Positions 3,126 through 41,905 of a DNA stretch of 64,000 bases are shown here, in pieces (position 1 is the stretch's first letter; each line of letters starts with the position of its first letter). A program made the translations under genes and the position numbers. The notes below the pieces were generated by a model. That model saw only the letters and a program-made list of their open reading frames with translations. It was not told the origin of the DNA and searched no databases. Location: NCBI GenBank assembly GCA_029243485.1, contig JAQWRY010000032.1, positions 62,001 to 126,000 of the forward strand, written 5' to 3'. The DNA comes from Candidatus Binatia bacterium. Lineage in GTDB: Bacteria > Desulfobacterota > Binatia > UBA12015.

Positions 3126-3662
3126 CGTTCCCCCAGGTTTCGCGTCTCTACCGAGGCGCCCCGATTCTAGGTGGTCTTTGGTCGGCTAAGAGTCAAGCGG
3201 CGGCGTGTTGTTTTTGGGAAGACGGGCATCAAGGCGTCCCGCGACGGGGAACTCGCCGGGGTGTAGGGCGCCCGCGGAGTTGGCAATCGACACGACCACG
3301 GTGGTCGAGTCGTCCGGGACGGAGACGCGCCGGATCTCCCCCGACGCGGCGTTCGAGGCGAGTAGAGCAAGGACGTGAGCATGGCGGTGAGGAGCGAGCG
3401 TATGGCCCATGCTGTCGTCACGGCGCGCCCTATGGCTTCGACTTGACCGCCCGGGTCTCTCCAGCGGAGCATCCTTGGATGCCACGTAGGGTTTCGGTGA
3501 AGAGAGGAGAATCCTCCCCGCACGAAGTCGGTGAAGCGGCCGTCCCTTTAAGGAAATCCGGAGCGGATCCCCGGAGCGACCGCTGCTCGATGACGACGGC
3601 GGCCTCGTCGTTGGTTTGCGGCGCCGCGGTGTGCCAGGAATGGTGGCGGGTTCGAGGCCGAG
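3126..3662. other. Region without a confident gene (possible small ORF 3186-3410, minus strand)
   Basis: 537 bases between two divergent genes. The only candidate is a 74-codon minus-strand frame from an ATG at 3410 to a stop at 3186. Its central part (SGEIRRVSVPDDSTTVVVSI) has plausible protein-like composition, but it lacks a recognisable family or signal peptide and could be the remnant of a longer gene, since overlapping frames also read through it. The long Arg-rich frames crossing this stretch look like GC-rich shadows. The promoters of the acyltransferase and SGNH genes must lie here, but I see no clear consensus site. Confidence 0.3.
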
Positions 3663-4838
3663 ATGAGGAAGGTGGGATACAGGATCATCGCGGCTCTGCT
3701 CGGGGTGGCCTGCGCGCTCGTCTTCGCAGAGGTCGCGGTCCGGTTGCTTCTGCCCCCGCCCGAACGGGCGCGGCTGGTTGCAGACTCGGGTCATGCGGAG
3801 CGACTCGCCGCAGAGAACGCCGAGCAGAAGCTCCTCCGCGTGGATCGGTCGGTCGACGATCCGAGTGCGGGCGGTGTCCTCTATTTTCACACGCCCACCG
3901 GGATGCGGTTCCGGGCCAACACGCGTGCGGTGATCCAGAACCATGGTCTGGGGGGCGGGACCATCGAGGTACGCACCAATTCTCTGGGCTACCGAAATCG
4001 CGAGCTTGGGGTGAAGGATCGCCCGCGCGTGTTGTTCGTCGGGGATTCCATAACGTCGCAGGACTATCTCCAAGAAGAACAGACCATCGTTCGCCTCGTC
4101 GAGACCCTCTCCGAGTCGACGGATCGGCCGATCGAGACCGTGAACTCCGGGGTCGGTGCCATTGGCATCGGGAACGAACTCGCGATCCTCATGGAAACGG
4201 GCTTCTCGGCCGAGCCCGATACGGTGGTGCTCAACTGGTACCTGAACGATGCGCAGGCGTCGGCGGGTATCGAGATCGTCGAGCTGAGCGGGTGGTGGCA
4301 GCACAGCAGGTTGGCCGAGCAGCTTCTGGCGAGCCTTTCCGCGCTCGACGTGCAGGATCTGTCGGTGTTCTCCTACGAGGCTGACGCCGCCTGGAAGAAG
4401 CAGGCGGCCGAAGCGTTCCCCCCGGCGCAGGGCGACTGGCGCCGTGAGCCGGGCGCTTTCAATCAGAGGATCCAGGCGCTGTTCTTCGACTGGGGAAGCG
4501 CCTGGTCCGAGGGGGCATGGGCCCGGATGGCGCCGGTCATCGCGGAGATGAAGCGTCAGTGCGATCTCCACGGAGTCCGGTTTCGGATCGTCGCCTTCCC
4601 GGTGCTCGAGCAGATCAATGCGGAGTTCGTCCACGACTATCCGCAGCAGCGCCTCGCGGAGATCGCCCGGGAACTCGACGTGCCGATGCTTGACCTGTTG
4701 CCGCTCCTTCGCGAGAAGAGCCGGCAGGTCAATGCGCCGCAACTCCACTGGGATTGGTGCCACCCGAGCCCGGAGGGCAGTGTGGTCATCGCAGGCGCCA
4801 TCCTGGACTTCCTTCAGCGCGAAGGCGGGTCGACGTAG
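3663..4838 (+). CDS. Membrane-anchored SGNH/GDSL-family hydrolase
   Basis: 391 residues. A hydrophobic helix at about residues 7-28 (IIAALLGVACALVFAEVAV) would anchor the protein, with the rest periplasmic. Block I is FVGDSIT with the nucleophilic Ser129, and the C-terminal Asp-x2-His pair is DWCH (Asp364, His367), both diagnostic of SGNH hydrolases. Such proteins remove or add O-acyl groups on polysaccharides, lipids or peptidoglycan; the substrate here is unknown. Its 3' end overlaps that of the convergent DUF3604 gene by 25 bases. Confidence 0.82.
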   Translation: MRKVGYRIIAALLGVACALVFAEVAVRLLLPPPERARLVADSGHAERLAAENAEQKLLRVDRSVDDPSAGGVLYFHTPTGMRFRANTRAVIQNHGLGGGTIEVRTNSLGYRNRELGVKDRPRVLFVGDSITSQDYLQEEQTIVRLVETLSESTDRPIETVNSGVGAIGIGNELAILMETGFSAEPDTVVLNWYLNDAQASAGIEIVELSGWWQHSRLAEQLLASLSALDVQDLSVFSYEADAAWKKQAAEAFPPAQGDWRREPGAFNQRIQALFFDWGSAWSEGAWARMAPVIAEMKRQCDLHGVRFRIVAFPVLEQINAEFVHDYPQQRLAEIARELDVPMLDLLPLLREKSRQVNAPQLHWDWCHPSPEGSVVIAGAILDFLQREGGST

Positions 4839-7054
4839 ATCGGGGACGACCACGCTCGCTCGCTCACGGGAGCGAGGCAATCGTCGCCGGCGGGTGTCCC
4901 GAACCCACCGTGGCATTGGGTGGTCGCGATCGCGCGCCCCTGCGTATCGAACTCGGTTCGTAGCCCAGCGCCGTTGATCGCCAGCGTCGGTTGCTGCAGC
5001 GCGCGTGCGTAATACACCGCACTGCGCTGAGACTCGGCGTACTCGGGGTCTTGGAACTCCACGCGGCAGCCTGCTGGAGCGTCCGGGCAATCGAAACGTC
5101 GCCAGGGGTCTTCGATCAACGGAGCGATCGGCTCGCCGGCTCGGCTCTGTGGTCGGATCCTCACGATCTCGATGGCCGTGATCCGGTGACGTTCGTCGCT
5201 GGGGTGGTAGCACTCATCGCGGCACAGCGAATGGAGGCGCTTGGCCGAGAGGCTGACCCGCGCCTCGTCGGGACACCCGGGGCGTTGCCGGAACGAGCCG
5301 ACGGCCCGGACGTCGAAGCGGGGGTTCTCGGAGAGCACGACCTCGCTCCCCATCGGGGAGGGGAGGTCGGGTTTGTTGACGAGATCGAACCACAGCAGGA
5401 TTCGCGGCCCGGTGGTCCCGTAGACCTCGCGGCGCATCAGCGCATCCCAGATCGCGCGCCGGTCGCGACTGCCGGCATGCACCGCGACCACGCCGCCGGG
5501 ATACATGAAGCTGGCCTTCCGCTCGGTATCGAAGAGCTCGAAGAGCCGGCTGGGACGAACGGATTGGGGAGTGGTCGCGCTTTCCTGATCGGGGCCGAGC
5601 CAACTCCGGACGCGTTCTTCGGTGGTCGCGTCGGTCAGGCCGCGGGAGTCGGTCATGATCGTGCGGTCGTACTGTTTGTAGCCGGTTCCAGGTCGCGACG
5701 CGTGGTTGTCGGTGGAGCTGATGAAGCCGAATCGGAACTGGAGCGGGTCACCGGCGTCGTCGCGTTCGTCGAAGTTGGTGACGGCGGCGCCGTATTGGGC
5801 GGTCATCCCCGGCCGGAGCGTCATGGCGGGCTTGAAGCAGTCGCGGCATTGATCGCAGTCGAGCCAGTCGGCGCCGCGGGTGTCTGGGAACACGAGGTCG
5901 GGACCGACCCCGCCCTCGAGCGCGAATTGCTTTGCTCGTTCGACGCGGCGGTCGCATTCCTCGGGGGGGAGGTCGCCGCAGCGTTCGCGCATGATCTCTC
6001 CGGCCCGCCAACAGCAGGGGAGATAGTCCTTCGTTGGCTCGGGGCAGACCCTTCGTCCGTCGTCGCCGACCACGTACTCGGGAACGTCGCGAAACTCTTC
6101 GCTGTTCCCGTGGCCCGAACTGATCTCGACGAGTCGCTGTCGGTCGGGGTCGTGTTGCGCACGTGTGAGCTGTGCGTCGAGGCGAGCTCCCGGAGGCGCG
6201 TGGATCCCCCAGGCGAGGCCGTGTGGAATCACCAGACTCTCGAGGTTCCATTCGTCGAGCTTGCGGAAGAGGACCTCCGGCGTGGCGGCGGCCTCTTTGC
6301 ATTCCGCGGGCAGTTCCTTCGTGTCGACGTCGTGGGCGCACGCGGGTGCCTCGGCGAGACGGCCCAGCAAGGACACGAGGTCGGCGTATCGCGGATAGCC
6401 GAAGAGGCGTGCACCGGCGGCCGCACCATGCATGACGAACCCGGGCGGTGGGCGCTCTTCCTCGTAGGTCGCGATGTCGATCGACGAGATCGGTCGGGCG
6501 GGAAGCTCGTCGTCGGCCGTCCCGGGGAAGAGGATGTTCTTGTGGCCGAAGTGCGTCTCGGGTGTTCGGCCGCTCTGGGTCCACTCCCAGCCGGTAAACG
6601 CAACCATGTCGGGGTTCGCGGGATCTCCGGCGAGATCGTTGCATTGCCGGATGCTCTCCTTCGTCTCTTCCCACAGCTGCGGCGTGAGCCCTTCGGCGTG
6701 ATCGTTGATGGAGAAGAAGTCGAGTCCCGAACAGTAGCGCGCGAAGTCACACGCGTCCGCCGGTGGGTGCGCTCCTTCTCCGTTGAAGATCGGGAGCGAG
6801 TAGATGAAGGCATCAGTCGAGAACGTCGAATGGACGTGGAGGTCTCCGAAGAGGATCTGCTTGTTCTTTCGTGCGGTCGGCGACACCGATGCAGGCCGCG
6901 CGACGTTCGCCGCGGCTCGCGCTTGGATTCGGTCGCGCTCCGAGATCGTGTCGGGCGACCGGGCCGCGCCGGTAATTTTGCCGGCGCTGGGCGGTTCGGT
7001 TGCGCAACCAGCCACGGCGAGTGCAATCAGGACCAACGACATGCGGCGGAGCAT
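4814..7054 (-). CDS. DUF3604 family lipoprotein
   Basis: 746 residues. The start MLRRMSLVLIALAVAGC is a lipoprotein signal peptide with the lipobox Cys at residue 17, so the mature protein is probably tethered to the membrane. The body begins LFGDLHVHSTFSTDAF, the DLHxHS opening motif of DUF3604, and continues with FFSINDHAEG; both His-rich motifs resemble PHP-type metal sites. DUF3604 proteins are about 600-750 residues and have no agreed function; many are annotated as putative metal-dependent hydrolases. Several Cys pairs (CDQCRDC, CRDEC) lie in the middle and C-terminal parts. An in-frame ATG at 7042 is an alternative start. Confidence 0.85.
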   Translation of the reverse strand: MLRRMSLVLIALAVAGCATEPPSAGKITGAARSPDTISERDRIQARAAANVARPASVSPTARKNKQILFGDLHVHSTFSTDAFIYSLPIFNGEGAHPPADACDFARYCSGLDFFSINDHAEGLTPQLWEETKESIRQCNDLAGDPANPDMVAFTGWEWTQSGRTPETHFGHKNILFPGTADDELPARPISSIDIATYEEERPPPGFVMHGAAAGARLFGYPRYADLVSLLGRLAEAPACAHDVDTKELPAECKEAAATPEVLFRKLDEWNLESLVIPHGLAWGIHAPPGARLDAQLTRAQHDPDRQRLVEISSGHGNSEEFRDVPEYVVGDDGRRVCPEPTKDYLPCCWRAGEIMRERCGDLPPEECDRRVERAKQFALEGGVGPDLVFPDTRGADWLDCDQCRDCFKPAMTLRPGMTAQYGAAVTNFDERDDAGDPLQFRFGFISSTDNHASRPGTGYKQYDRTIMTDSRGLTDATTEERVRSWLGPDQESATTPQSVRPSRLFELFDTERKASFMYPGGVVAVHAGSRDRRAIWDALMRREVYGTTGPRILLWFDLVNKPDLPSPMGSEVVLSENPRFDVRAVGSFRQRPGCPDEARVSLSAKRLHSLCRDECYHPSDERHRITAIEIVRIRPQSRAGEPIAPLIEDPWRRFDCPDAPAGCRVEFQDPEYAESQRSAVYYARALQQPTLAINGAGLRTEFDTQGRAIATTQCHGGFGTPAGDDCLAPVSERAWSSPIYVDPPSR

Positions 7055-25312: not shown

Positions 25313-27868
25313 ATGCACTGCACACTCGTTTCGCATACGCACTGGGACCGGGAGTGGTACCGGACATTCCAGAACTTTCGCGCGCGCCTGGTCGATGCGA
25401 TCGATCGCGTACTCGACATGGCGGCGGAGGATCCGGAGTTTCGGTTTCTGCTGGATGGCCAGACGATCGTACTCGAAGACTACCTCGAGATTCGGCCGGA
25501 CCGTCGTGAGGAACTCGAGCGCGCGTGTCGCGAGCGTCGCATCGCGATCGGGCCCTGGTACGTGCAGCCCGACTCGCTCTTGCCGGCGGGTGAGACGCAC
25601 GTGCGCAATCTTCTCGAGGGGCGTCGGGTCGGCCGCGCCTTCGGGGGCGTGTCACAGATCGCGTACACGCCGGATTCGTTCGGGCACCCGGCTCAGTTCC
25701 CGCAGATCTTCGCCGGGTTCGGTCTCGATCTCTTCACGTACTGGCGCGGCAATGGCTCTGAGATCGACGACTTGCCTGCGGAGTACCGATGGGAGGCGCC
25801 CGACGGAACGTCGGTCCTCGCGCATCACCTGGGCGAGGGTTACTTCGGCGCCTGCGGCCTGCCCGAAGATCCGATCGCCGCCGCGGTATTCCTGCGGGGA
25901 GTGTCCGACGAACTCGTGAAGCGGACGACCAACGACCGTGTCCTGCTCATGAACGGCATCGACCATGCGATTCCCGGCCCGGGCGTGGGGACGGTTCTCG
26001 AGGTTCTGAGACGATCGACGGGTTGGACGGTCAAGCGCGGCGTTCTGGAGGATTTCGCTGAGGGATTATCGCCCGACGCGCCGACGTATCGTGGCGAGCT
26101 CGTCGGCGGTCGTATCGCCAATCTTCTCCCGGGCGTCTGGTCGGCTCGCATGCCTCTCAAGCTCCGCAACCGAGAGGCCGAGGCCGTGCTGCTCGGATGG
26201 GCCGAGCCCTGGGCCGCGCTCGCCGCACGCTCGGGCCTCCGCGATGATCGTCCAGCGCTCCGCACCGCGTGGCGCTCGCTGTTGTGCAACCAGGCTCACG
26301 ATTCGATCTGTGGTTGCTCGCAGGACCGTGTGCACGACCAGGGCGAGGCGCGCTACGATGTTGCGATAGAGCTTGGCACGGAGACGGCCACACGGTGCTT
26401 GGAGCGGCTCGCCGGCTTGGACACTACACGGAGTCAGCCGTGGGATGCCGACCTCGACGTCGCGGTGTTCAACCCGTCCCCGCACCCGCGAACCGACGTC
26501 GTTCGGTTCCCCTTGGAGGCGGCGGCCTGGGTCGAGTTCCGGGGGGACGTCGAGCGCTCCATGCAGGTGCATCCGTTGCTCGGCGCCACGGTCCAGGCGA
26601 AGGGCTACACGGCGGACGGCGTTGCGGCGCGTCTCGTTCGCGAGACGGGCTCCCCGCGCTTGCGGCTCCAGCCGGATCAGGCGCCGCTCTATGTCGAGAC
26701 GATCGTCCGAGACGTCCCGGCCTTCGGTTGGCGTCGGGTGCGACTTGAGCGCACAGAGGCGCATCCCGACGAAGAAGATGACGGCCGCGAGATCTCGAAC
26801 GAGGACGTGTCGGTTGCGGTCGCACCCGACGGGACGCTCGACGTTCGGCTCGGCGAGCAACTGTTTCGTGGACTGTGCGGGCTCGAAGACGTCGGCGATC
26901 GCGGCGACACCTACGACTTCGATCCGGTCCCGGGTCTGTCGGAACCGCGGCTGGAGTCTCTCCTCGTCTCCCGTCGGCGTCATCCCGGTGGGATGCAAAC
27001 CCTGCGGGTCGAGCGCGTGTTCTCGACGCCCGACTGCCTCGATCCGGACCGTCGCCACCGAAGCGTCGTGAGGACGAAGTCGCGCGTCGTCATCGAGGCG
27101 TGCATTGCGGACGGGCTCTCGCGCGTCGACCTCGAAGTTCTGGTCGACAACCAGGCGCGCGACCACCGTCTCCGCCTCCTGTTCCCGACTGGAGACAAGG
27201 GCGGCGACGCGTTGGCTGCTACGACGAGTGACATCGCGCGCCGAGCCGCGCAGGTGGCTGACGCGACGGGTTGGATGCATCGCGCGCCGACGACCTTTTG
27301 TCAGCAGGGTTTCGTTCGCGGGGGTGGCCTGACGGTGGGCGCCCCCGGACTGCCGGAGGCGGAGTGGAACGAGGACGGGGTGATTGCCCTGACGCTGGTG
27401 CGATCCGTCGGCTGGCTCGCACTCATGGACCTCGAGAGCAGGCCGATCCCGGCGGGGCCGGTGGTGGAGACCCCGGGCGCGCAGTGCCTCGCGCCGTTCC
27501 AGACACGCATCACGTTGCTCGGCACGCTCGACCCCGCCGCCGTGCGGGAATTCGAACTCGGATTCATGGCCGTGCCCGCAGGAGACGCGCCCCTGGTCGA
27601 CAGCCAGCGCTCGCTATTCGAGATGGATTCGCGGACCGTGCTCCTCGAGACCTTGAAGCCGGCCGAAGAGGGGGAGGGCGTCGTGGTGCGGCTGCTCAAC
27701 CCGACCGATCGAGAGGAATCGGTCTGTCTTCGGACCGCGTTTGGTGCGGAGAAGGCGACTCCGGTGCGCTTGGACGAAGAAGTCTGCGGGGAGTCCGTCT
27801 CGATCGATGGCGGTACGCTTCGAACGACGGTGCCCGCGCACGCCCTCCGCACGTTCCGCCTCGACTAG
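25313..27868 (+). CDS. Glycoside hydrolase family 38 alpha-mannosidase
   Basis: 851 residues. The N-terminal catalytic domain opens with SHTHWDREWY, the GH38 zinc-binding motif, and the nucleophile Asp lies in AYTPDSFGHPAQFPQI. QAHDSICGCSQD near residue 325 is the family's His/Asp site. The middle helical and C-terminal beta-sandwich domains follow. There is no signal peptide, so action is probably cytoplasmic on imported mannosides. The gene faces a GPH-type sugar symporter gene, their stop codons overlapping (TAG at 27866-27868 against the opposite-strand stop at 27865-27867), which fits a catabolic pairing of uptake and hydrolysis. Confidence 0.93.
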   Translation: MHCTLVSHTHWDREWYRTFQNFRARLVDAIDRVLDMAAEDPEFRFLLDGQTIVLEDYLEIRPDRREELERACRERRIAIGPWYVQPDSLLPAGETHVRNLLEGRRVGRAFGGVSQIAYTPDSFGHPAQFPQIFAGFGLDLFTYWRGNGSEIDDLPAEYRWEAPDGTSVLAHHLGEGYFGACGLPEDPIAAAVFLRGVSDELVKRTTNDRVLLMNGIDHAIPGPGVGTVLEVLRRSTGWTVKRGVLEDFAEGLSPDAPTYRGELVGGRIANLLPGVWSARMPLKLRNREAEAVLLGWAEPWAALAARSGLRDDRPALRTAWRSLLCNQAHDSICGCSQDRVHDQGEARYDVAIELGTETATRCLERLAGLDTTRSQPWDADLDVAVFNPSPHPRTDVVRFPLEAAAWVEFRGDVERSMQVHPLLGATVQAKGYTADGVAARLVRETGSPRLRLQPDQAPLYVETIVRDVPAFGWRRVRLERTEAHPDEEDDGREISNEDVSVAVAPDGTLDVRLGEQLFRGLCGLEDVGDRGDTYDFDPVPGLSEPRLESLLVSRRRHPGGMQTLRVERVFSTPDCLDPDRRHRSVVRTKSRVVIEACIADGLSRVDLEVLVDNQARDHRLRLLFPTGDKGGDALAATTSDIARRAAQVADATGWMHRAPTTFCQQGFVRGGGLTVGAPGLPEAEWNEDGVIALTLVRSVGWLALMDLESRPIPAGPVVETPGAQCLAPFQTRITLLGTLDPAAVREFELGFMAVPAGDAPLVDSQRSLFEMDSRTVLLETLKPAEEGEGVVVRLLNPTDREESVCLRTAFGAEKATPVRLDEEVCGESVSIDGGTLRTTVPAHALRTFRLD

Positions 27869-33460: not shown

Positions 33461-33829
33461 CATGAGGATCGAGGAACAGTATGGGGAAGAAGCCGCGGAG
33501 TTGGTGCGGCAACGCGGCTCGTGCTGGGCTGCATCCTCGCCTACGGAGTGGCGTGGGTGTTCGAGCACTACGAGCATCCGGGACGCAACGCGACCTACGG
33601 CTTGCTCTTCGGCGCAATTGTGGTCGAGCAGTAAGGCCGGGTCCAACGGGCGGGCCGCAGTGCCCGCAACCTGTTCGAGTTGATCACCTCGAAGCTCGAC
33701 GTGCTGCGCAACCTCGTGGGCAATGCACTCAAATTCACCGATCACGGCAGCGTCGTGATCACGGCGCGCCGGCATGGTGAAGGGGGCGATGTTGCGTGGA
33801 TGGCTTCCGCGGACCCGCCGGCTGAATGA
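33461..33829 (+). pseudogene. Relic of a sensor histidine kinase
   Basis: Two frames carry pieces of one protein. The start (ATG 33461) reads MRIEEQYGEEAAELVRQR. The next frame continues TRLVLGCILAYGVAWVFE, a transmembrane helix, and GLLFGAIVVEQ, ending at TAA 33632-33634. The same frame then resumes SARNLFEL, LRNLVGNALKFTDHG and SVVITARR, matching the N-box of the HATPase_c domain of histidine kinases, and stops at 33827-33829. The phosphoacceptor domain and the Gly-rich ATP lid are missing. At least one frameshift, one in-frame stop and internal deletions make a functional product unlikely. Confidence 0.6.
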
Positions 33830-33852
33830 TCCGCTCGGCGACGCGCTCCCGG

Positions 33853-34248
33853 CTACTCCTTCAACCGGGGCGGAAGCGCGTACCACTCTTTGAGTTGCGC
33901 GAGAAGCTGCTGCGCATCGGGTTGCGCGAGCTTTTCCTCGCACTCGGCCTTCGAGTATCCGGTTCGGAGGCCGGTCGTGCGCGCCTGCCCTTCGTCGAAG
34001 ACCTTGGACAGAATCTCGAGGTGTTGGTCGGAGGCACCGCGGCCCCGCGCGTAGCGGAGGTAGGAAGCGCGGATCCGAACGGGGGGTCGGATGTCACAGG
34101 TGATGAAGCGGCCACTGTAGCTGCCGTACTTCAGGGCTGTGTCTTTGAGCTCTTCCACGACGATCACGTCGATCGCGGCAGCGGGGCCGGTGGACAAGGA
34201 GAGCGCGACGAAGGCGATTCCGAGCAGAAAGATACGTGACGAGACCAT
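33853..34248 (-). CDS. Secreted protein of unknown function
   Basis: 131 residues. A signal peptide spans about residues 1-25 (IFLLGIAFVALSLSTGPAAA), followed by IDVIVVEELKDTALKYGSYSG. Two Cys (in FITCDIRP and KAECEEK) may form a disulfide. I recognise no family. It lies 33 bases downstream of the potassium-channel gene on the same strand, at the end of the run that begins at 40887, so it may be its last member. Confidence 0.68.
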   Translation of the reverse strand: MVSSRIFLLGIAFVALSLSTGPAAAIDVIVVEELKDTALKYGSYSGRFITCDIRPPVRIRASYLRYARGRGASDQHLEILSKVFDEGQARTTGLRTGYSKAECEEKLAQPDAQQLLAQLKEWYALPPRLKE

Positions 34249-34281
34249 CGTAACGAGGCTAACGACGACGGCCGACCGAGT

Positions 34282-34968
34282 CTACTGGGGCGGCCGCGCC
34301 GTCTTGGTGGTGTAGATTGCCACGAGGCGTGCGATCACGGCGGCGATGTAGAGCTGCCCGATCACGGCTTCGACCGCTGCGAGGTTGCGTGCGATCGGTG
34401 CGACCGGCGCGATGTCTCCGTACCCGACCGTCGTGAGGGTGATCAGGCTGAAGTAGCGCAGGATGCTGCTCCCGCGGTGGCTTGCCTCGGCGAGTTCCAC
34501 GCCGATCGCGTCCGATACCGCGAAGGCTTCCGGGTCGATGTGCGCGATCAGCATGAACAAGCGAGCGAACAGAAAGCCGATGAGGAGGTAGACGGCGGAC
34601 GCCCCGAACACCGTGTCCGCCTCGACCTCGTTGCGCGAGAATATGTCTGTGAGAATGCCCCACGAGACCAGCGTGAGAAAGATGACCCCGGCGACGTCCG
34701 TGAGGATCGGGAGCCCGTTCTCGGATATCGGCGCCGCGGCCTCGAGCGCGACGAAGGTCGAGCCGCAGAGGCCTATCAGCAGGAGCAGCGTTCGGTCCGA
34801 CCAGATGGCGCGGAGGCTGCCCACGAAAACGAGGAACGTGAGCGAGGTGAGGCCCAACGGGGTCTCTGGCTGTGTGGCTACAAGAGGCTCGAAGACGAAG
34901 AGGAGAAGCGTCGCTATCAGCAGGAAGGAGTATCGTCCGGTGAGCATGTCGAGCGGGAGAGTCTTCAT
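34282..34968 (-). CDS. Ion_trans_2-type potassium channel without regulatory domain
   Basis: 228 residues with about six hydrophobic segments. The last two flank the pore loop with the selectivity filter TVGYGD near residue 188, so K+ selectivity is expected. There is no RCK/TrkA-N domain or voltage-sensor Arg ladder, and the C-terminus ends after a short basic tail (TTKTARPPQ). The ATG at 34968 overlaps the stop of the MprF-like gene by 4 bases, so translation is probably coupled. A channel encoded directly behind a lipid aminoacylation enzyme is unusual. Confidence 0.9.
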   Translation of the reverse strand: MKTLPLDMLTGRYSFLLIATLLLFVFEPLVATQPETPLGLTSLTFLVFVGSLRAIWSDRTLLLLIGLCGSTFVALEAAAPISENGLPILTDVAGVIFLTLVSWGILTDIFSRNEVEADTVFGASAVYLLIGFLFARLFMLIAHIDPEAFAVSDAIGVELAEASHRGSSILRYFSLITLTTVGYGDIAPVAPIARNLAAVEAVIGQLYIAAVIARLVAIYTTKTARPPQ

Positions 34969-37520
34969 CGTTTTACGATTCCTACGACCCCGCCGGAGAC
35001 CAGGCTGGCAACGTCGGTCAGGATCCGCGGGAGCGCGAAGCCGCCAGGGGAGGCGAGGTAGCGCGGTGTCCACTCCGGGTCGAACTTGTCCTTGTACTGG
35101 CGCAGACCCTGGAAGTTGTAGAAGTGCTCGCCGTGGCGATAGAGGAATCCGCCGGCACGGCTCCAGAGCGGGGCGAGCGCGTGTTCGTCCATACCGGAGA
35201 ACGGCGCGAGTCCGAGGCCGAACCGTTGGTACCCACGGGCGCGTGCCCACTGCATGCCTTCGATGAACAGGAAGTCCATCAGCCCGGCCGGGCCGCCGGG
35301 CAGATGGCGCATGAGGTCGAAGGACATCTCCGCGTGCTGACCGCTTTCCCAAAGATTCGCAAATGCAACAATCCCGTTTTCGGTGCGCACGATCGCGATC
35401 GGGAACCGCCGCAGGTACGCGCGATCGAACCGCCCAAGCGAAAAGCCCTTCTCGCGGGTGTTCTTCTCGGCGAGCCACGTGTCCGACACCGTCTGCAGTT
35501 CGGGGAGGATCTCGTCGACGCCGTTCGGGGGCACGATCTCGAAGTGGGCCCCGTCCTGCGTGGCCTGCCTATGCGCCCGCCTGAGGCGAGCCCGCTCGGG
35601 CCCGTCGAGGCTGAAATGCTCGAGGGGCACGTGAGCTTCCTGGCCGAGCTTCAACAGGTTCAATCCGAGATCGACGTACGTGGCGAGGTTCGCGCTGCCG
35701 ACCTCATAGAAGACCGTTCGGGCGCCGTGTCTCCCGGCGAGTGCGTGGAACTGCCACGCCAGGTCGCGCGTCTCCTCCTGCGGGCCGATGGGGTCGCCGA
35801 GTGCGATGAAGCTCGTCCCGGCAACTCCGTACATGACGAAGGCGTTCCGGCTCGCCGTCAGGAGGAACGATTTGTCGCCGGCGAGCGCGAGGTGCGCAGT
35901 CGCCACCGGCGAGTCGCGCACGACGCTCTCGATCCGTTCCCAGGTCTCGTCCGAGGGGGCTTCGGGGTCCGGGGGGGCGGGCCTCAAGAGCCGCGCAGCG
36001 CCGTACATGACGAAGGCGATCGCTGCACCGGCAAGGGCGCGCAGTCCGCGGGATGCCTGGCTCGAGAGTTCGAATTGCCACCAAAGGTCCGCTTGGTACT
36101 CGACGTGACGATAGGAGAACAGGAGCAACCAACCGGCACCGACCAGCACCAGAATCGCGGCGAACGTCCAACTTGGAGTGAGGGGTTCGTCGAGAAGGGA
36201 GGAGCGTCGGTAGAAGTGTCGACGGCACGGGATCAGCGCGAGGAGGGCCACGGCGAGGATGGCGGTCGTCTCGAGATCGAACGCACGGAGCAGCGAGAAG
36301 GCGGCTCCGGCGGCGAGCAGGCCGGAAGTGAGAGCCCAGGCCGCGTTCAGGCGGAGCTGCAGTCCGCGAGCGAGGAGAACCAGGGCCATCCCGATGAGGC
36401 TCGCGAGGAAGTTCGACAGGTTCAGGACCGAGAGCGGTAGCGCGCGCGCGAGCCATTCGAGCTTTTCGGGGGCCGTCGGCGTCGTGCCGCCGACGACGAG
36501 CAACAGGCCCGCGATGAACGTGAGCAGGGCGAGTGCCTGCGGGACGATCTCTGGAACCCAGCTGCCGACGATCCGCCCCACTTCGCTCGCATGGGACTTT
36601 CTTTGCAGGAGCTCGTGTCCTCCGAGGAGCAGGCTCGCGACCGCGAGCGGCACGACGTAGTACACGCCCCGGAACACGAGGACGGCGCCGAGGAGTTCGG
36701 ATTTCGGGGCGTACGGTGCGAGCGCGATCAGCAGCGTCGCCTCGAATACGCCGAGCCCCGCGGGCACCGCGCTCGCGACGCCGATCACCTGTGCGAGGAG
36801 GAAGGATCCGAAGAAGATCGGAAAGGTGAGTGTCGGGGTATCGGGTAGCAGTACCCAGAGCACGGTGGACGCGAGGAGCCAGTCCGCACTCGAGACGGCA
36901 ATCTGAGCCGTGCCGATTTTGGGCGCGGGCATCTCGATCTGCCAGCTTCGGAGCCGGATGGGCCGACTGCGCAGCGAGCAGCGCACGAGGTAGGCCCCGA
37001 CGAGGACCGGCCCGACGAGGCCGAGGAGGCGGGTGAGGTCGGCGTCGAGCGGAACCAGCGCGCGCAGCGCCTGCGGCTCGCCGATGAGGACGACCCCGCC
37101 GAGTGTCAGAAACCCGAGCCAGAAAGTGAGTCCCGTGAAGCCGATGACCTTGGCGATCTCGACCGAAGAGAGTCCCCAGCTCGAGTACAATCGATACCGC
37201 ACGGCGCTGCCGCCGAGGAAGATCGGCCCCAAGTTGTGGTTCACCACGTAGCCGACGAAGGACGCCATCGAGATTCGTCGATACGGTAGCCAGTGGTCGA
37301 TGTAGACGAGTGCAAGCGCGTCGTATGCGGTGAGCACGATGTAGCTCAACGCCGAGAGCAGAAGCGAGATGGCGATCGCCGTCGTCGGTAGGCTTCTCGC
37401 GTACGCGAGGATCTGGTGGGTCGGGATGTCGCGCAGTTCGCGATGGAGCACGAAGCCCACGCCCACGACGAGGACGACGCCCAGCAGAGGAGGCCCGTAC
37501 CTCCGAAGGATCGTCAACAC
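34965..37520 (-). CDS. mprF: MprF-like bifunctional phosphatidylglycerol aminoacyltransferase/flippase
   Basis: 851 residues, the usual MprF length. The first ~530 residues hold some 12-14 transmembrane helices, starting with an UPF0104/flippase-like part (SFVGYVVNHNLGPIFLGGSA). The last ~300 residues are the DUF2156 (GNAT-like) synthase domain, with SFIALGDPIGP, EKGFSLGRF and FPIAIVRTENG. MprF transfers Lys or another aminoacyl group from tRNA to phosphatidylglycerol and flips the product outward, lowering the membrane's negative charge. The GTG start at 37520 lies 11 bases after the DUF1614 stop, and its stop overlaps the K+-channel start. Substrate amino acid cannot be read from sequence. 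Confidence 0.9.
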   Translation of the reverse strand: MLTILRRYGPPLLGVVLVVGVGFVLHRELRDIPTHQILAYARSLPTTAIAISLLLSALSYIVLTAYDALALVYIDHWLPYRRISMASFVGYVVNHNLGPIFLGGSAVRYRLYSSWGLSSVEIAKVIGFTGLTFWLGFLTLGGVVLIGEPQALRALVPLDADLTRLLGLVGPVLVGAYLVRCSLRSRPIRLRSWQIEMPAPKIGTAQIAVSSADWLLASTVLWVLLPDTPTLTFPIFFGSFLLAQVIGVASAVPAGLGVFEATLLIALAPYAPKSELLGAVLVFRGVYYVVPLAVASLLLGGHELLQRKSHASEVGRIVGSWVPEIVPQALALLTFIAGLLLVVGGTTPTAPEKLEWLARALPLSVLNLSNFLASLIGMALVLLARGLQLRLNAAWALTSGLLAAGAAFSLLRAFDLETTAILAVALLALIPCRRHFYRRSSLLDEPLTPSWTFAAILVLVGAGWLLLFSYRHVEYQADLWWQFELSSQASRGLRALAGAAIAFVMYGAARLLRPAPPDPEAPSDETWERIESVVRDSPVATAHLALAGDKSFLLTASRNAFVMYGVAGTSFIALGDPIGPQEETRDLAWQFHALAGRHGARTVFYEVGSANLATYVDLGLNLLKLGQEAHVPLEHFSLDGPERARLRRAHRQATQDGAHFEIVPPNGVDEILPELQTVSDTWLAEKNTREKGFSLGRFDRAYLRRFPIAIVRTENGIVAFANLWESGQHAEMSFDLMRHLPGGPAGLMDFLFIEGMQWARARGYQRFGLGLAPFSGMDEHALAPLWSRAGGFLYRHGEHFYNFQGLRQYKDKFDPEWTPRYLASPGGFALPRILTDVASLVSGGVVGIVKR

Positions 37521-37531
37521 GAGCCCGGTTC

Positions 37532-38206
37532 CTATGCGCCGGCGAGAAGCACCGCGATGAGTCCGGTCAGGAAGACGCCGTCGAATGTACCGGCTCCCCC
37601 GATCGACACGATCGGTGCTCCCAACGTCCGGATCCCCGGGAGGTTGAGAATGTCGGCGCCGAGTAGCGCGCCGAGCGTGCCTCCGGCGTACGCGGCGGCG
37701 GCAGGGGCCGTCGGGGCGAGAACCAAGGCCGCTCCGGCGGCGGCCAGCGGTGGAATGAACATGGGCATCGCAATGCCGACGCCCTTCACCGGAGTCGCAA
37801 TGAGGTACGTTACTCCGGTCACGACGAGGAGGGAGAGTAGGACCGGGGCGGGATTCGCTTGCTGGGAGATGACCCAGAACGAGAGGAGCATCGGGACGAT
37901 GGCTCCGCCCACGTTGATGGCGACCACGGTCGGTTTTGCGTCGGGGCCTTCGCCCTCCACGGGTGCCATGGTGAATAGCGGGAGGTTCAACATGCTCCCG
38001 ATCCACGAGGCGAACAGCAGCCCGAAGAAGTACCGGTGCGGGACGCCGAGCTTGTCGTACGCGAAATCGAGCGCGCCGACCTCGAGAATGCCGAGGAGTC
38101 CCGCGGCGGCGAACATGAGACCGAGGCGCCCCGGTGTCAGCTCTATCTTGGCGGGGGCCTGCGCTGCGGGGCCGGCTGGGCCCGCGGGTTTCGCGGACTT
38201 CGTCAC
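37532..38206 (-). CDS. DUF1614 family membrane protein
   Basis: 224 residues with about six transmembrane helices. After a Pro/Ala-rich cytoplasmic N-terminus come segments typical of DUF1614: VVAINVGGAIVPMLLS and, near the C-terminus, GGAGTFDGVFLTGLIAVLLA. The family is found in bacteria and archaea and has no known function. The start overlaps the ferredoxin stop by 4 bases and the stop lies 11 bases before the MprF-like start, so it is firmly within this operon. Confidence 0.85.
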   Translation of the reverse strand: MTKSAKPAGPAGPAAQAPAKIELTPGRLGLMFAAAGLLGILEVGALDFAYDKLGVPHRYFFGLLFASWIGSMLNLPLFTMAPVEGEGPDAKPTVVAINVGGAIVPMLLSFWVISQQANPAPVLLSLLVVTGVTYLIATPVKGVGIAMPMFIPPLAAAGAALVLAPTAPAAAAYAGGTLGALLGADILNLPGIRTLGAPIVSIGGAGTFDGVFLTGLIAVLLAGA

Positions 38207-38706
38207 GTCGCGTCGCTCCCGGCCGGTCGCTCGCTTGCCAGGGTCGCCCGGTCGTCGTCGCTCAGAAGACCGGCGAGGCGGGAACCCTCACCCATGTGAT
38301 GGAACCCACCTTCCTCGGCCCAATAGTCGTCGCCGGGTTCCGGGGTCTGGCCGGCGGGCTCCGGGCTGCCTGTGATCTCGGCTCCGAGGACCTGCTCGAG
38401 CAGGTTCGAGTCGTAGGTTCGGATGGCGCTTGCGCCGGCGATGAACGTGCAGACTTCCACGCAGATGTGGCATCCGACGCATTCGAAGTGGCGCACCTGA
38501 ACCGGCTGGGAGTCTCGGCCTTCGACGGCTCCGTCGGGCAGGGTCTCGATGCATTGGGCCGGACAGAGCGGAGCGCAGAGGCCGCAAGCCGAGCAGGCGT
38601 TTACGTCGACCAACGCGACGACGTCGGGCTTTTGCTGCTTGGGCGTGACGGGCTCGGGAACCCCAGCTTCGGCGAGCCGCTGACGAATCACCTCGATTGC
38701 GGACAT
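38203..38706 (-). CDS. Two-cluster (2[4Fe-4S]) ferredoxin-type protein
   Basis: 167 residues. The first cluster motif is CSACGLCAPLCPAQC (Cys-x2-Cys-x2-Cys-x3-Cys near residue 45); the second is CVGCHICVEVC. The N-terminal ~40 residues are a basic helix (SAIEVIRQRLAEAG) and the C-terminal ~60 residues are acidic and low-complexity. It is probably an electron carrier or a redox-sensing subunit. I chose ATG 38706 because GGAGAA lies at the right distance; an ATG at 38724 is possible. The gene overlaps DUF1614 by 4 bases. Confidence 0.88.
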   Translation of the reverse strand: MSAIEVIRQRLAEAGVPEPVTPKQQKPDVVALVDVNACSACGLCAPLCPAQCIETLPDGAVEGRDSQPVQVRHFECVGCHICVEVCTFIAGASAIRTYDSNLLEQVLGAEITGSPEPAGQTPEPGDDYWAEEGGFHHMGEGSRLAGLLSDDDRATLASERPAGSDAT

Positions 38707-38767
38707 GAGCGGGTCTTCTCCCATCCCGCCGGGGTCCACGCAAGAACGGGAGCAGGATGGACCCCGA

Positions 38768-40006
38768 TCAGGGTCGCCGCGTCACCCTCTTGAACTTGAG
38801 TTCCACGGCGTCCAGGCCGCCAAGCACGTCTTCGCTCACGACACCCTTGCCTTCGACGGTGGTGCCGTTGGGTACGGGGAGGTCCTCGCAGACGAACTGG
38901 CGGGGGGCTCGGATCCGCGTGTCGGGCAGGATGCGGACCGACACGACCGCGCCCTGTCGCGCCACCTGCAGGATCCCCTCGTCACAGTCGGCGGCGATCA
39001 CGAGCCCGCGAATCGGGAGCTCGAAATCAGGGGCCTGACGTCCGCCCACGATGACCACCTGCCCGCGAATCACGCCGGGGGCCCGCAGGTTGAGGGTGCC
39101 GCCACCGGTCACACGGTCGCCCAGAGTGAGATCTTCGCACGCGAGCGGGCGGTCTTGCGGGGTCCGGATGACGGCGTCGGCCGGCAGGCGGATGCGCACC
39201 AGGTGCTTGCCGTCGTGGATGGCGATCCCACCGGCATCACAGTCGATCACGATGATGTTGCCGCGCAACGCGACCTGACGCTCGAGCTGCGGAGGCGAGT
39301 CGTCGGGCCCAATGACGATTCGGAGCGCAGTCACGCCACGCCCACCGAGATCGTCGAGGAGTCCCTCGACTGCGATGTCGTCTCGCTTACGGATGTCGTC
39401 GCAGGATGCAGCACTCCCGCCTCGCAGGAATTCCGTATCGTCGATTAACGTGACGTCGAGTCGATCGCCGTCGCGGTCTTCGACCCGAAGTTCTCCAGCG
39501 GCGCAGTTCACTTCGCGAACCCTTCCGGCACCAAGGATCTGGCGACCGGCTTCTGCGGTGACGCCGTCGGCGTCGAGTTCGATGTCGGAGAGGACGACGA
39601 CGCCTCCGGTCGGGATGTCGAGTTCCTGTTCGGTTTCGAAGTCGGTCGTCTGGAAGCGCAGGGTGACCGCTCCGGAGAACTCGCCATCGATACTGAAGTT
39701 GCCGTCGGTATCGGTCGTCGTTGCGAGGTCCGGGAACTCGACGAGCGAGACGTCGATCCCGTCGACGCTTGCGAGTCCTTCCAGCTCCGGGGCTTCGCCC
39801 GTGGCGCTTGCAGAGCCCAGGTCTGCGGTGTTCTCGACCGCTTCGAAGTCCTCTACCGCGACCACATTGCCTACGACCGAGGCGCTGATGCCCGTTCCCA
39901 CGGGTCCACCATCGGTTATTCCAATGCCCAAGCCGCCGCCGCAGCCCCACAGGAGAAGCGTTGCGACGAGCAGGACCGACTGCCGCGTAGGTAGAGAGAA
40001 CCTCAT
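38768..40006 (-). CDS. DUF5666-type lipoprotein
   Basis: 412 residues. A lipobox signal peptide (VLLVATLLLWGC) puts the lipidated Cys near residue 22. The mature protein has repeated ~60-70-residue beta modules (LRGNIIVIDCDAGGI, DFELPIRGLVIAADCDEG) with the recurring V-x-I-x-x-D-C/G pattern of DUF5666, a small OB-like domain seen in lipoproteins. The start overlaps the DUF6502 stop by 4 bases. This pair, HTH protein plus DUF5666 lipoprotein, is, to my knowledge, a recurrent neighbourhood in proteobacteria, without assigned function. Confidence 0.8.
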   Translation of the reverse strand: MRFSLPTRQSVLLVATLLLWGCGGGLGIGITDGGPVGTGISASVVGNVVAVEDFEAVENTADLGSASATGEAPELEGLASVDGIDVSLVEFPDLATTTDTDGNFSIDGEFSGAVTLRFQTTDFETEQELDIPTGGVVVLSDIELDADGVTAEAGRQILGAGRVREVNCAAGELRVEDRDGDRLDVTLIDDTEFLRGGSAASCDDIRKRDDIAVEGLLDDLGGRGVTALRIVIGPDDSPPQLERQVALRGNIIVIDCDAGGIAIHDGKHLVRIRLPADAVIRTPQDRPLACEDLTLGDRVTGGGTLNLRAPGVIRGQVVIVGGRQAPDFELPIRGLVIAADCDEGILQVARQGAVVSVRILPDTRIRAPRQFVCEDLPVPNGTTVEGKGVVSEDVLGGLDAVELKFKRVTRRP

Positions 40007-40887
40007 CGTGACCTCGTGATGCGACCGGGCAGAGGCGGATCGCCTTCGAAGACCTTCTTCGAGTCTTCCTCGGTCTCTTCGTAGTAGTACACGCCCAGAA
40101 CGACGCGGGATTGCTTGCCCCCGGGAGCATCCGGGGTGCGGTCGCGGTCGTTCGACGACAAGAGGACGTTGGATCGACGGATGAAGTCTTCGCCGGTGGC
40201 GCGTGAGGATTCGCGCAGAGCTTCGAGCGCGTCGGAGCCGATGTTGTCGTAGACGACCTTGCGTTGCAGCCAGGGCTTCTCTGGGTTCTCGACGTTGTGC
40301 ACGATGGTCGAGAATAGTTCGCCCGGATCGGATGCGAGGAGCGTGAGCTTCCCTTCGAGATCGCCCGCGGGGACGTTCGCTTCCTGTTTCAGATGTACGA
40401 CGCCTGCATCGTCGATGGCGGCGACGCCCGTGCGAATGAGTTCGTCGAGAACGGATCGGACGGGCAGATCGACGCCCCGTTCGCGGACGAGCCGAGAGAA
40501 CGTCGCCGTCCGTTTTCGAGTGTCCTCGTAAGGCAGTGCGCGCGGGTGCCCCCGCGCGTCGGAGAACGGCGGCCCGCCGATCCACCGCCCGATGACGCGC
40601 GTAATGGCGGTGTCTTCTACTTCGACCGGAGCATCTGCTGTGCGCGGTCCGTGACGTAGTCGCGCGATCTCTTTCCGATTCAGCCCGGTCATGAGTGCGA
40701 CGCGGCTGTCGGTCAGGCGCTTGTGGGGCAGCGCGAAGTCATGCTCGGCGGTTTCCACGTAGAGCTCGCGGATTATCTGGTCGAGCGCAGGGTAGGTGAC
40801 GCCATACGCGACCAGCTGTCGAACGACCGGTCGCAGCATGCGGCGAATCGCCGCCGCAAACTGCTCCTTCAATCCTGTGGGAAGCAT
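40003..40887 (-). CDS. DUF6502 family protein, probable DNA-binding
   Basis: 294 residues, cytoplasmic. The N-terminal third contains LALPHKRLTDSRVAL-like and GLNRKEIARL segments that look like a helix-turn-helix, and the C-terminal part carries VYYYEETE. The length and pattern match DUF6502 proteins. It is the first gene of the run to 33853 and overlaps the DUF5666 lipoprotein start by 4 bases, so it may be a regulator acting on its own operon. Function is inferred from context only. Confidence 0.7.
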   Translation of the reverse strand: MLPTGLKEQFAAAIRRMLRPVVRQLVAYGVTYPALDQIIRELYVETAEHDFALPHKRLTDSRVALMTGLNRKEIARLRHGPRTADAPVEVEDTAITRVIGRWIGGPPFSDARGHPRALPYEDTRKRTATFSRLVRERGVDLPVRSVLDELIRTGVAAIDDAGVVHLKQEANVPAGDLEGKLTLLASDPGELFSTIVHNVENPEKPWLQRKVVYDNIGSDALEALRESSRATGEDFIRRSNVLLSSNDRDRTPDAPGGKQSRVVLGVYYYEETEEDSKKVFEGDPPLPGRITRSR

Positions 40888-41168
40888 GAGATCTCGAGTT
40901 GGAGCAGTCTACCGTGTTTCGGCTCCGTTTGCCCGGCCCCGGCCGGCGTCGATGAGACACCGGGGGGATGGCCGCATCGTCCCGCCGGACGGGGGCCGGG
41001 TGGGTGGCCGAACGCGGTCCCGGACCCCATGTCGGGGACCGCGTCCTGCCGGAGCCGTCGCTGGGGGAACCGGGGGGGGAATCCCCAGCGACGAGTTTCT
41101 CGGACTTGCTTCCTGGTGCTCGGGGCGCTCATGATCGAGTTCGATGCCGGAGAACTTTTCGGCATAAA

Positions 41169-41183
41169 TGGGAAATATTCCCA
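41169..41183. promoter_or_regulatory. Inverted repeat TGGGAA-ATA-TTCCCA, candidate operator
   Basis: A perfect 6-bp inverted repeat with a 3-base spacer, in an AT-rich island inside a GC-rich region. It lies 77 bases upstream of the 41261 gene. It looks like a binding site for a dimeric regulator; the factor is unknown. Confidence 0.4.
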
Positions 41184-41198
41184 ATTTCAGATCAACGC

Positions 41199-41216
41199 AA
41201 CCCCATTTTTGGGGTT
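41199..41216. promoter_or_regulatory. Inverted repeat AACCCC-ATTTTT-GGGGTT
   Basis: A perfect 6-bp inverted repeat with a 6-base AT loop, 15 bases after the previous repeat and 44 bases before the 41261 start codon. It could be a second operator half or a small hairpin in the 5' leader. Confidence 0.35.
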
Positions 41217-41260
41217 TCGTAGGTTCTCGTGCCCCCTGACGCCTCGAACGCGTAGCCGTT

Positions 41261-41905
41261 ATGCTCGACTGGGTGCTCCTCTGGTTCTTCATCGCAGGCC
41301 TCCTGATCATGGGGGTCCGCAGGTTTTTCCTGGGGTATCCGGCGACCCCGGTCGGCGTTCAGACGCTCCCGGCGCGGGAGTATCAGACCGCTCGAGCCGC
41401 GGCGCTCGTGATCTATCCCGAGGGCGGGGCGATTTCGGCCTCGGCCGATTCGGCGCGGGTGGGTCTTCACGCGGACCGTTTCGTGGGCGCGCAGGCGACC
41501 TCGAACCAGATCCTGATGCACCTGCTATTCATCGCGGTCGAGCACGCGACGCTCGTGTTCCCGAGTCACGGGCCCCGCGGTCGGCGGCGCTTCTCGTCGC
41601 TCGATCCCGATCAGCAGCTCGCCTACCTCGAAGGTTGGCGGCAGAGCCAGCTCGCCCCGCGTCGGCTCGTCTTCATGAGCCTTCGTGCCATCCTCACGAT
41701 GGGCTACTTCGCAGACCCTGGCGTTCTGCGGTCTCTGGGGCTGGCGCCGCGCGAAATCGAGCGGCGCGTCGTCGAGGCCGATCTATTGTGGCCGGCAGTG
41801 GGCGAGCACCCGGCGTCCATTGGATTCAGGCAAGCCGACGTGAACGGTCGAGGTGATCTGCCACCGCTTGGTCCGGCTGAGCCACTGCATCCGGATTACC
41901 GATGA
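41261..41905 (+). CDS. Small membrane-anchored partner of a GMC oxidoreductase
   Basis: 214 residues. One N-terminal hydrophobic helix (WVLLWFFIAGLLIMGV) is followed by a globular part with ALVIYPEGGAISAS, HGPRGRRRFSSLD and SLRAILTMGYFADP. It resembles the gluconate 2-dehydrogenase subunit-3-like proteins that accompany membrane GMC dehydrogenases, though the similarity is modest. The stop overlaps the GMC oxidoreductase start by 4 bases (ATGA), so the two products are made together and probably interact at the membrane. Confidence 0.7.
   Translation: MLDWVLLWFFIAGLLIMGVRRFFLGYPATPVGVQTLPAREYQTARAAALVIYPEGGAISASADSARVGLHADRFVGAQATSNQILMHLLFIAVEHATLVFPSHGPRGRRRFSSLDPDQQLAYLEGWRQSQLAPRRLVFMSLRAILTMGYFADPGVLRSLGLAPREIERRVVEADLLWPAVGEHPASIGFRQADVNGRGDLPPLGPAEPLHPDYR

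Follow-up and report, generated by a model that had tools for sequence, protein, structure and literature searches.

In a 64,000-nucleotide (nt) stretch of a Candidatus Binatia bacterium genome (assembly GCA_029243485.1, contig JAQWRY010000032.1, positions 62,001 to 126,000 of the forward strand; hereafter the window, whose own numbering we use), seven consecutive minus-strand genes encode a DUF6502 protein, a lipoprotein, a ferredoxin-type protein, a DUF1614 membrane protein, the lipid synthase/flippase MprF, a K+ channel and a small secreted protein (Table 1). An initial annotation had proposed that these genes form one envelope system in which membrane surface charge and K+ flux are linked. 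Our best explanation, which we regard as probable, is that, within this genus, three older modules have been stacked in one direction behind a proposed DUF6502 repressor and its candidate operator, and that the run is not one pathway. The promoter-operator of DUF6502, with its small candidate regulon, is a better finding than a seven-gene pathway. With an explicit operator sequence, a promoter layout and a set of candidate targets (Cys-rich secreted proteins and a DUF5666-like lipoprotein), the function of DUF6502 becomes directly testable.

A candidate operator at the DUF6502 promoter

Upstream of DUF6502 lies a promoter, TTGCGT-17-TATTTC, whose -10 box is overlapped by the palindrome TGGGAATATTTCCCA. 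The general form, TTGnnn-17-TAnTT, can be recognized by eye in the window genome (G000, a 6.5-Mb assembly of 88 contigs) and in G001 and G002 of the same genus (represented here by G000-G003), as well as in G010, G011, G003b, G004 and the second G038 locus; at the first G038 locus, TTG and the -10 box are separated by 17-18 nt. Over the 373 nt in front of DUF6502, the window sequence shares ~80% identity with G001 and G002. When a profile of this region was used for searching, it matched a short stretch ~900-1030 nt upstream of DUF6502 in L170, L169, L092 and L163 (twice in the last), loci whose upstream regions are otherwise unlike that of the window. The matching stretch consists of the promoter and TGGGAATATTTCCCA or a near form of it.

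The pattern TGGGAATANNTCCCA occurs at 13 sites in 9 of 58 related genomes (genus included), with no occurrence of the backward control. All nine of these genomes hold DUF6502, which is present in 21 of the 58 (hypergeometric probability 2.8e-5, without correction for kinship). Seven sites lie upstream of DUF6502, with or without a Cys-rich gene between, and three precede Cys-rich genes elsewhere. The other three stand before the gene for a 400-residue secreted protein in G000, before that for a 145-residue one in G018 and, in G006, at the end of a contig; neither secreted protein matched a family above cut-off. The places concerned are L323 7326-8528 (G000 contig C88), L327 2283-2720 (G018 contig C105) and L326 7199 (G006 contig C572, near the contig end), the last facing away from an Abhydrolase_10 gene.

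The more general form TGGG-N7-CCCA occurs 16 times in 335,302 bases; 13 of these occurrences, from 11 of 23 loci, are in DUF6502 upstream sequence, which makes up 27,208 bases. The TGGG half-site is enriched 10-fold upstream, the highest value among the 256 half-sites when the ranking is limited to those with at least four upstream occurrences; composition-matched half-sites reach at most one locus and other spacers at most two. The site also stands 24-117 nt upstream of divergent DUF6502 paralogues (G006b, G018a, G043 and G024). Among 13 held-out loci it was present at three (G031 twice, G057), which account for three of the four occurrences there, the fourth (L346) being counted as not upstream by an estimate of the gene start. 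At two of these three loci, the palindrome lies between DUF6502 and a divergently oriented gene for a secreted protein with 12 Cys residues. Finally, 22 of 65 distinct sites have a core in which at least six of the seven bases are A or T, and all 22 belong to DUF6502 loci, Cys-rich loci or loci fetched with the pattern; no such site occurs in 282 other locus records, which comprise 2,477,385 bases and in part overlap the same place.

From these sequence comparisons, we infer that the palindrome is the operator to which DUF6502 binds. A palindrome over the -10 box is familiar from one-component repressors that control their own genes. The arrangement here has such a -10 palindrome at the operon of the putative regulator as well as in front of other envelope genes. 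It differs in the TGGG half-site, in a 7-nt core that is usually A/T-rich and in a protein family that, like DUF1614, is the subject of no paper in the literature searched. We propose that DUF6502 acts as a one-component DNA-binding repressor on TGGG-N7-CCCA over the -10 box, where it would silence its own promoter, together with those of the secreted Cys-rich proteins, until released by some signal. The lipoprotein and the Cys-rich protein would then be the envelope-side products of the DUF6502 switch.

The DUF6502-lipoprotein pair

DUF6502 is 79-94% identical within the genus, and PF20112 was matched by all 13 family members tested. The lipoprotein gene is adjacent at 20 of 23 DUF6502 loci; where the junction was compared, an ATGA-type overlap joins the two genes at nine of 12 loci. 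In a further set of 13 more divergent loci, four have the genes side by side. At one of the latter (L348, in G019), DUF6502 and a lipoprotein-like PKD-containing protein share a single uninterrupted frame of 1,071 residues (2602-5817) with a lipobox-like start inside it. In a sample of 198 genomes of the phylum, all three DUF6502 genomes from outside the class have a DUF5666 lipoprotein directly behind the gene (E-values 5.2e-29, 1.5e-36 and 2.7e-25). Because adjacency holds across the class and in three of three genomes outside it, the pair is an old and widespread bicistron.

The DUF5666 label that had been given to the window lipoprotein did not survive a profile search: PF18914 has no match at E<=1, and CarboxypepD_reg-like matches stay below cut-off. 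DUF5666 is matched weakly by 2 of 12 members of this lipoprotein family (best E 2.8e-4), and we call the protein DUF5666-like by position. In common with the DUF6502-DUF5666 pairs, it directly follows DUF6502 and has, by eye, a Gly-rich N-terminus after the lipobox. The pairs of this class differ in having Cys pairs in three repeats, in mostly escaping the DUF5666 profile and in being preceded by a Cys-rich secreted gene at seven loci. With a DNA switch of its own, DUF6502 and its lipoprotein appear to be an undescribed regulator-lipoprotein pair.

Cys-rich secreted proteins and the DUF6502 leader

The seven loci at which a Cys-rich gene stands directly upstream of the DUF6502-lipoprotein pair are spread over six genomes. 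At five of them the promoter lies in front of the Cys-rich gene (G011, G038 twice, G010 and G003b); of the remaining two, G031 shows no site and the G006a contig starts inside the gene. Cys-rich genes that lie away from DUF6502 and carry an operator site encode secreted proteins of 216-230 residues with many Cys. No Pfam family was matched above cut-off by any of the four Cys-rich proteins tested.

In the window genome, the Cys-rich gene is located elsewhere (contig C86), where a separate operator copy accompanies it, and a structured leader occupies the front of DUF6502. Between operator and gene, the leader is predicted to fold into one hairpin and a three-way junction. The region 40888-41120 folds with z -4.4 on the minus strand, and the plus strand also folds (z -3.5). 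A consensus from three sequences of three species, taken over the whole intergenic alignment, has 16 of 119 pairs changed on both sides, and an Rfam search of the leader found no family near its gathering score. In G003, sequence downstream of the Cys-rich gene matches part of this leader (81% identity to the G002 leader), which suggests an old intercistronic hairpin.

A dispersed repeat beginning CTAGTGCACCGCCGTCGA also occurs in the genus in both orientations (L325 7915-7995 and 8005-8081; L133 19573-19652; L135 1-97), with one copy just upstream of DUF6502 in G003. It is perhaps a small mobile element.

Conservation of gene order and gene overlaps

Neighbourhoods were taken from tblastn searches for the relatives' loci. 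The seven-gene order is kept in all four same-genus genomes examined and in no other genome compared. Gene order is weak evidence here, because the flanking genes are equally syntenic in the genus: upstream, the GDH3-GMC-ABC genes in G001 and G002; downstream, in G003, a beta-helix gene, a haem-oxygenase-like gene and further window genes. The conserved overlaps are better evidence. Genes overlap by 4 nt at the DUF6502/lipoprotein junction in four of four genomes, at ferredoxin/DUF1614 in three of four and at MprF/channel in three of four (the exception being G002), and DUF1614 and MprF are at most 15 nt apart in all four, with the proteins of the run 46-94% identical. The lipoprotein/ferredoxin gap measures 28, 259, 20 and 949 nt in the four genomes, and the 949-nt gap of G003 contains an extra same-strand gene for a protein of 277 residues; a single transcript over the run is for these reasons not assured. 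A sigma-70 scan of 33700-41300 found no promoter-like site, a result that is uninformative because the scan also misses the conserved DUF6502 promoter.

Matches at E<=0.001 are widespread among the 58 relatives (channel in 43, MprF in 21, DUF1614 in 22, DUF6502 in 21), and the combination is confined to the genus. The K+ filter motif appears in 4 of 72 MprF locus records (mostly with 1.5-kb flanks, some overlapping the same place), and all four belong to the window's genus. A 395-genome sample of the phylum gave 33 genomes with MprF (E<=1e-60) and 17 with the channel (E<=1e-22); the window genome is the only one common to both sets. Among the best 80 of 564 confirmed DUF1614 relatives in genome contigs, no locus holds a channel of the window type and no partner from the run is common to the loci; ferredoxin, GDH3 and GMC are near DUF1614 in one of them (L172, on a G007 contig). 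An apparent MprF beside DUF1614 in L198 was set aside, since this region is broken and the MprF part is an incomplete piece joined to foreign sequence. The linkage claimed in the initial annotation thus stands within the genus, for gene order and the MprF/channel overlap, and falls outside it, where MprF and channel were not found as neighbours, which weakens the case for one pathway of all seven genes. In the literature searched, no paper treats lysyl-phosphatidylglycerol together with a potassium channel; the terms MprF, potassium channel and operon occur together in one (PMC5015961).

The ferredoxin-DUF1614 unit

The second module recurs without the third. Four genomes of the family (G005, G006, G007 and G010) have the ferredoxin gene next to DUF1614 and close to a divergent GDH3-GMC pair (~1.2 kb away in G007), and this stretch has neither MprF nor channel. 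G011 has GMC-GDH3 first and DUF6502-lipoprotein second, followed by ferredoxin and DUF1614, and here other sequence intervenes. The arrangement resembles an older redox unit that has received DUF6502-lipoprotein as an insertion. We propose that ferredoxin-DUF1614, near the divergent genes for a GMC oxidoreductase and a small-subunit-like protein, is probably a membrane electron-transfer unit.

PF07758 was matched by 12 of 12 rows of a first DUF1614 alignment (A1). A larger alignment (A2) took in 78 of the best 80 of 564 DUF1614 loci, L174 being dropped for a stop codon and L220 left out; over 79 rows, N98, D185 and D209 are invariant, and the T of the motif GGAGTFDG is nearly so. An AlphaFold2 (AF2) model of DUF1614 has a predicted local distance difference test score (pLDDT) of 90.7. 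Foldseek returned no relative of the model at E<=0.001 (eight matches at E<=10), and VIA-align 2 gave Z of at most 3.6 among 63 chains, values that do not thereby make the fold new. A GxGD-type membrane protease, considered on account of two invariant Asp residues, was dropped when these searches gave no clear structural relative. In-frame stops in ferredoxin and DUF1614 genome matches at first suggested recoding; the frames are mostly gene-length, and the stops probably come from matches that overrun the gene end.

MprF, K+ channel and the relation of MprF to Kch

MprF, channel and small secreted protein form a set seen only in the window's genus. D234, E280 and R304 of the Rhizobium tropici MprF flippase are reported to be functional residues (PMC8131360); their window equivalents, D213, E260 and R284, are kept in 13 of 13 alignment rows. 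Like R. tropici MprF/LpiA (PDB 7duw), the window protein has ~850 residues, a membrane part of two subdomains and a synthase, with the equivalent of Y307 also kept; it differs in having F at the equivalent of Y303 and in being followed by a K+ channel gene. In G002, the MprF frame (L134 12783-14351) ends after ~522 residues, before the synthase domain, and the channel gene follows; no other MprF match at E<=0.001 exists in that genome. The shortened frame may reflect either a real loss or an error of the assembly.

The channel has six membrane segments by hydropathy, a correction to the two-helix pore originally described, and its filter, TVGYGD, occupies residues 180-185. The fourth segment, ILTDVAGVIFLTLVSWGIL, where a charged S4 voltage sensor would be expected, has no Arg or Lys. 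Six segments and the TVGYGD filter are shared with E. coli Kch and with small bacterial six-segment K+ channels (Ion_trans_2), and a local profile match covers the pore half (Kch columns 124-203, P 1.4e-12). Unlike Kch, the window channel has no RCK domain, and its N-terminal helices are not of the MprF-like type. In this third module, MprF would make and flip aminoacyl-phosphatidylglycerol, a cationic lipid, and the channel would provide a K+ path without a gate domain of its own. Channel translation is probably coupled to that of MprF, and the two would be made together.

The N-terminal helices of E. coli-type Kch are, on profile evidence, homologous to MprF subdomain 2. The profile alignment pairs residues 18-136 of Kch with this subdomain (window MprF ~328-441; hhalign P 3.5e-07, probability 93%) when a Kch profile of six sequences is used (E. 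coli kch at L171 2517-3770); comparisons of Kch with MprF subdomain 1, the synthase domain, reversed subdomain 2 and DUF1614 each gave P above 0.1. With curated models, and below their own cut-offs, 8 of 13 MprF proteins match the Kch model and E. coli Kch matches the MprF model (2.5e-06); all eight other membrane proteins of the window match neither. Profile comparison found no MprF-like N-terminal region in the window channel. No paper in the literature searched names both MprF and Kch. To our knowledge, the physiological role of E. coli Kch is still open, and if the helix homology holds in structures it would give Kch an evolutionary link to lipid-handling proteins. One could go further and picture MprF subdomain 2 as a K+-channel partner module, fused in E. 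coli-type Kch and encoded by an overlapping gene here, that joins aminoacyl-lipid handling to K+ flux, physically or through regulation, in a genus-specific pair behind the DUF6502 switch, which would elsewhere control Cys-rich secreted proteins and a DUF5666-like lipoprotein; this is a speculation to which we attach very little weight.

Alternative explanations

Several observations weigh against DUF6502 as the reader of the palindrome. Within 1300 nt, 12 of 23 DUF6502 loci have no exact TGGG-N7-CCCA; three of these have <700 nt of upstream sequence (97 in G003, 412 in G009 and 699 in G006a), and two carry one-mismatch forms. Ten of the 13 held-out loci also have no exact site, and of the loci outside the class, L303 has none, L302 has one that is G+C-rich and L301 has only 76 nt upstream. 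The half-site GCCG is likewise found at 11 loci, though it is common everywhere and only 1.1-fold enriched, and the co-occurrence probability given above is too small because the genomes are related. As for the protein, a Pfam scan assigns it no helix-turn-helix, a profile search of the PDB gave nothing below E 0.3 (best E 0.33) and an AF2 model from a single sequence, without an alignment, has a pLDDT of 37.8. Another regulator, present in the same genomes, could own the palindrome, with DUF6502 as one of its target genes; this would account for the site at a contig end and the two before unrelated secreted genes, as well as for the DUF6502 loci without an exact site. It fits less well with the recurrence of the site close upstream of divergent DUF6502 paralogues, including those held out (G031 twice, G057), with the absence of A/T-core sites from the 282 other records and with the presence of DUF6502 in nine of nine genomes that hold the pattern. 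We consider this alternative unlikely.

For the run as a whole, the opposite extremes are a single functional unit and a set of unrelated neighbours. In a single unit, the cationic lipid made by MprF and the K+ channel would together set surface charge and membrane potential, perhaps under a redox or peptide signal sensed through the genes at the head. The order kept in four of four genus genomes, the MprF/channel overlap in three and, as an independent hint, the homology between Kch helices and MprF subdomain 2 would suit such a unit, and the lipoprotein/ferredoxin gaps of 28 and 20 nt in two species, which count against separate modules, leave room for one long transcript. Yet the genes are unlinked outside the genus, the flanks are equally syntenic within it, the window channel itself has no MprF-like helices, and in G002 the channel stays even as the MprF frame ends before the synthase domain. 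We regard a single unit as improbable. That the modules are neighbours by descent only, through ordinary same-strand packing and with no functional tie, is close to an even prospect and is compatible with the three-module stack that we favour: the flanking genes have the same synteny, and relatives carry five of the seven gene families outside any such run. It sits less easily with the overlaps of ferredoxin/DUF1614 and MprF/channel in three of four genomes and with the short DUF1614/MprF distance in all four, despite the divergence of the proteins. In the three-module stack, read-through from the DUF6502 promoter into modules 2 and 3 may occur. More broadly, this dissection warns against taking genus-level gene order for a pathway.

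Gene coordinates, junctions and minor features

All seven minus-strand open reading frames are open at the coordinates in Table 1, as the initial annotation had them. Its four close junctions were also recovered, as three 4-nt overlaps (DUF6502/lipoprotein, ATGA; ferredoxin/DUF1614, GTGA; MprF/channel, ATGA) and one 11-nt gap (DUF1614/MprF); the lipoprotein/ferredoxin and channel/secreted gaps are 28 and 33 nt. Pfam or NCBIfam matches above cut-off upheld the labels DUF6502, Fer4, DUF1614, MprF and K+ channel (Ion_trans_2). The description of the channel as having no regulatory domain was right as well, the protein ending nine residues past its last predicted segment. Lipoboxes, signal peptides and the label alpha-mannosidase for window 25313-27868 were assigned by eye, with no search.

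Table 1. Features of the DUF6502-MprF region, in window coordinates
Feature	Start	End	Strand	Basis and remarks
-35 box TTGCGT, promoter pointing at DUF6502	41195	41200	-	Conserved, by eye in relatives
Palindrome TGGGAATATTTCCCA, candidate operator	41169	41183	.	Overlaps -10 box TATTTC (41172-41177)
Predicted structured leader, operator to DUF6502	40921	41091	-	RNA fold; one hairpin and a three-way junction
DUF6502 protein, 294 residues	40003	40887	-	PF20112, 170.8 bits (cut-off 27); putative operator-binding regulator
Lipoprotein, 412 residues	38768	40006	-	CarboxypepD_reg-like segment; a conserved Cys pair in each of three repeats; lipobox assigned by eye
Ferredoxin-type protein, two [4Fe-4S], 178 residues	38203	38739	-	Fer4 families, 28.6 bits (cut-off 21.1); alignment of 21 relatives
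DUF1614 membrane protein, 224 residues	37532	38206	-	PF07758, 160.6 bits (cut-off 23.9); 79-row alignment; AF2 model
MprF, bifunctional aminoacyl-phosphatidylglycerol synthase/flippase, 851 residues	34965	37520	-	NF033480, 884.4 bits (cut-off 600), residues 11-843; PF09924, 302.8 bits (cut-off 27.5)
Six-segment K+ channel, 228 residues	34282	34968	-	PF07885, 44.7 bits (cut-off 22.5); filter TVGYGD; without C-terminal regulatory domain
Small secreted protein, 131 residues	33853	34248	-	No known family
Divergent GDH3-like gene and GMC oxidoreductase gene	41261	43425	+	GDH3 (gluconate-2-dehydrogenase subunit 3), 20.5 bits, below the 23.4 cut-off; neighbour of ferredoxin-DUF1614 at family level

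In searches of the 58 genomes at E<=0.001, the small secreted protein at the end of the run was matched in five and absent from the remaining 53. A second copy of it is present in the window genome (C2:53737-54090), in G001 and in G002, and G010 has one.

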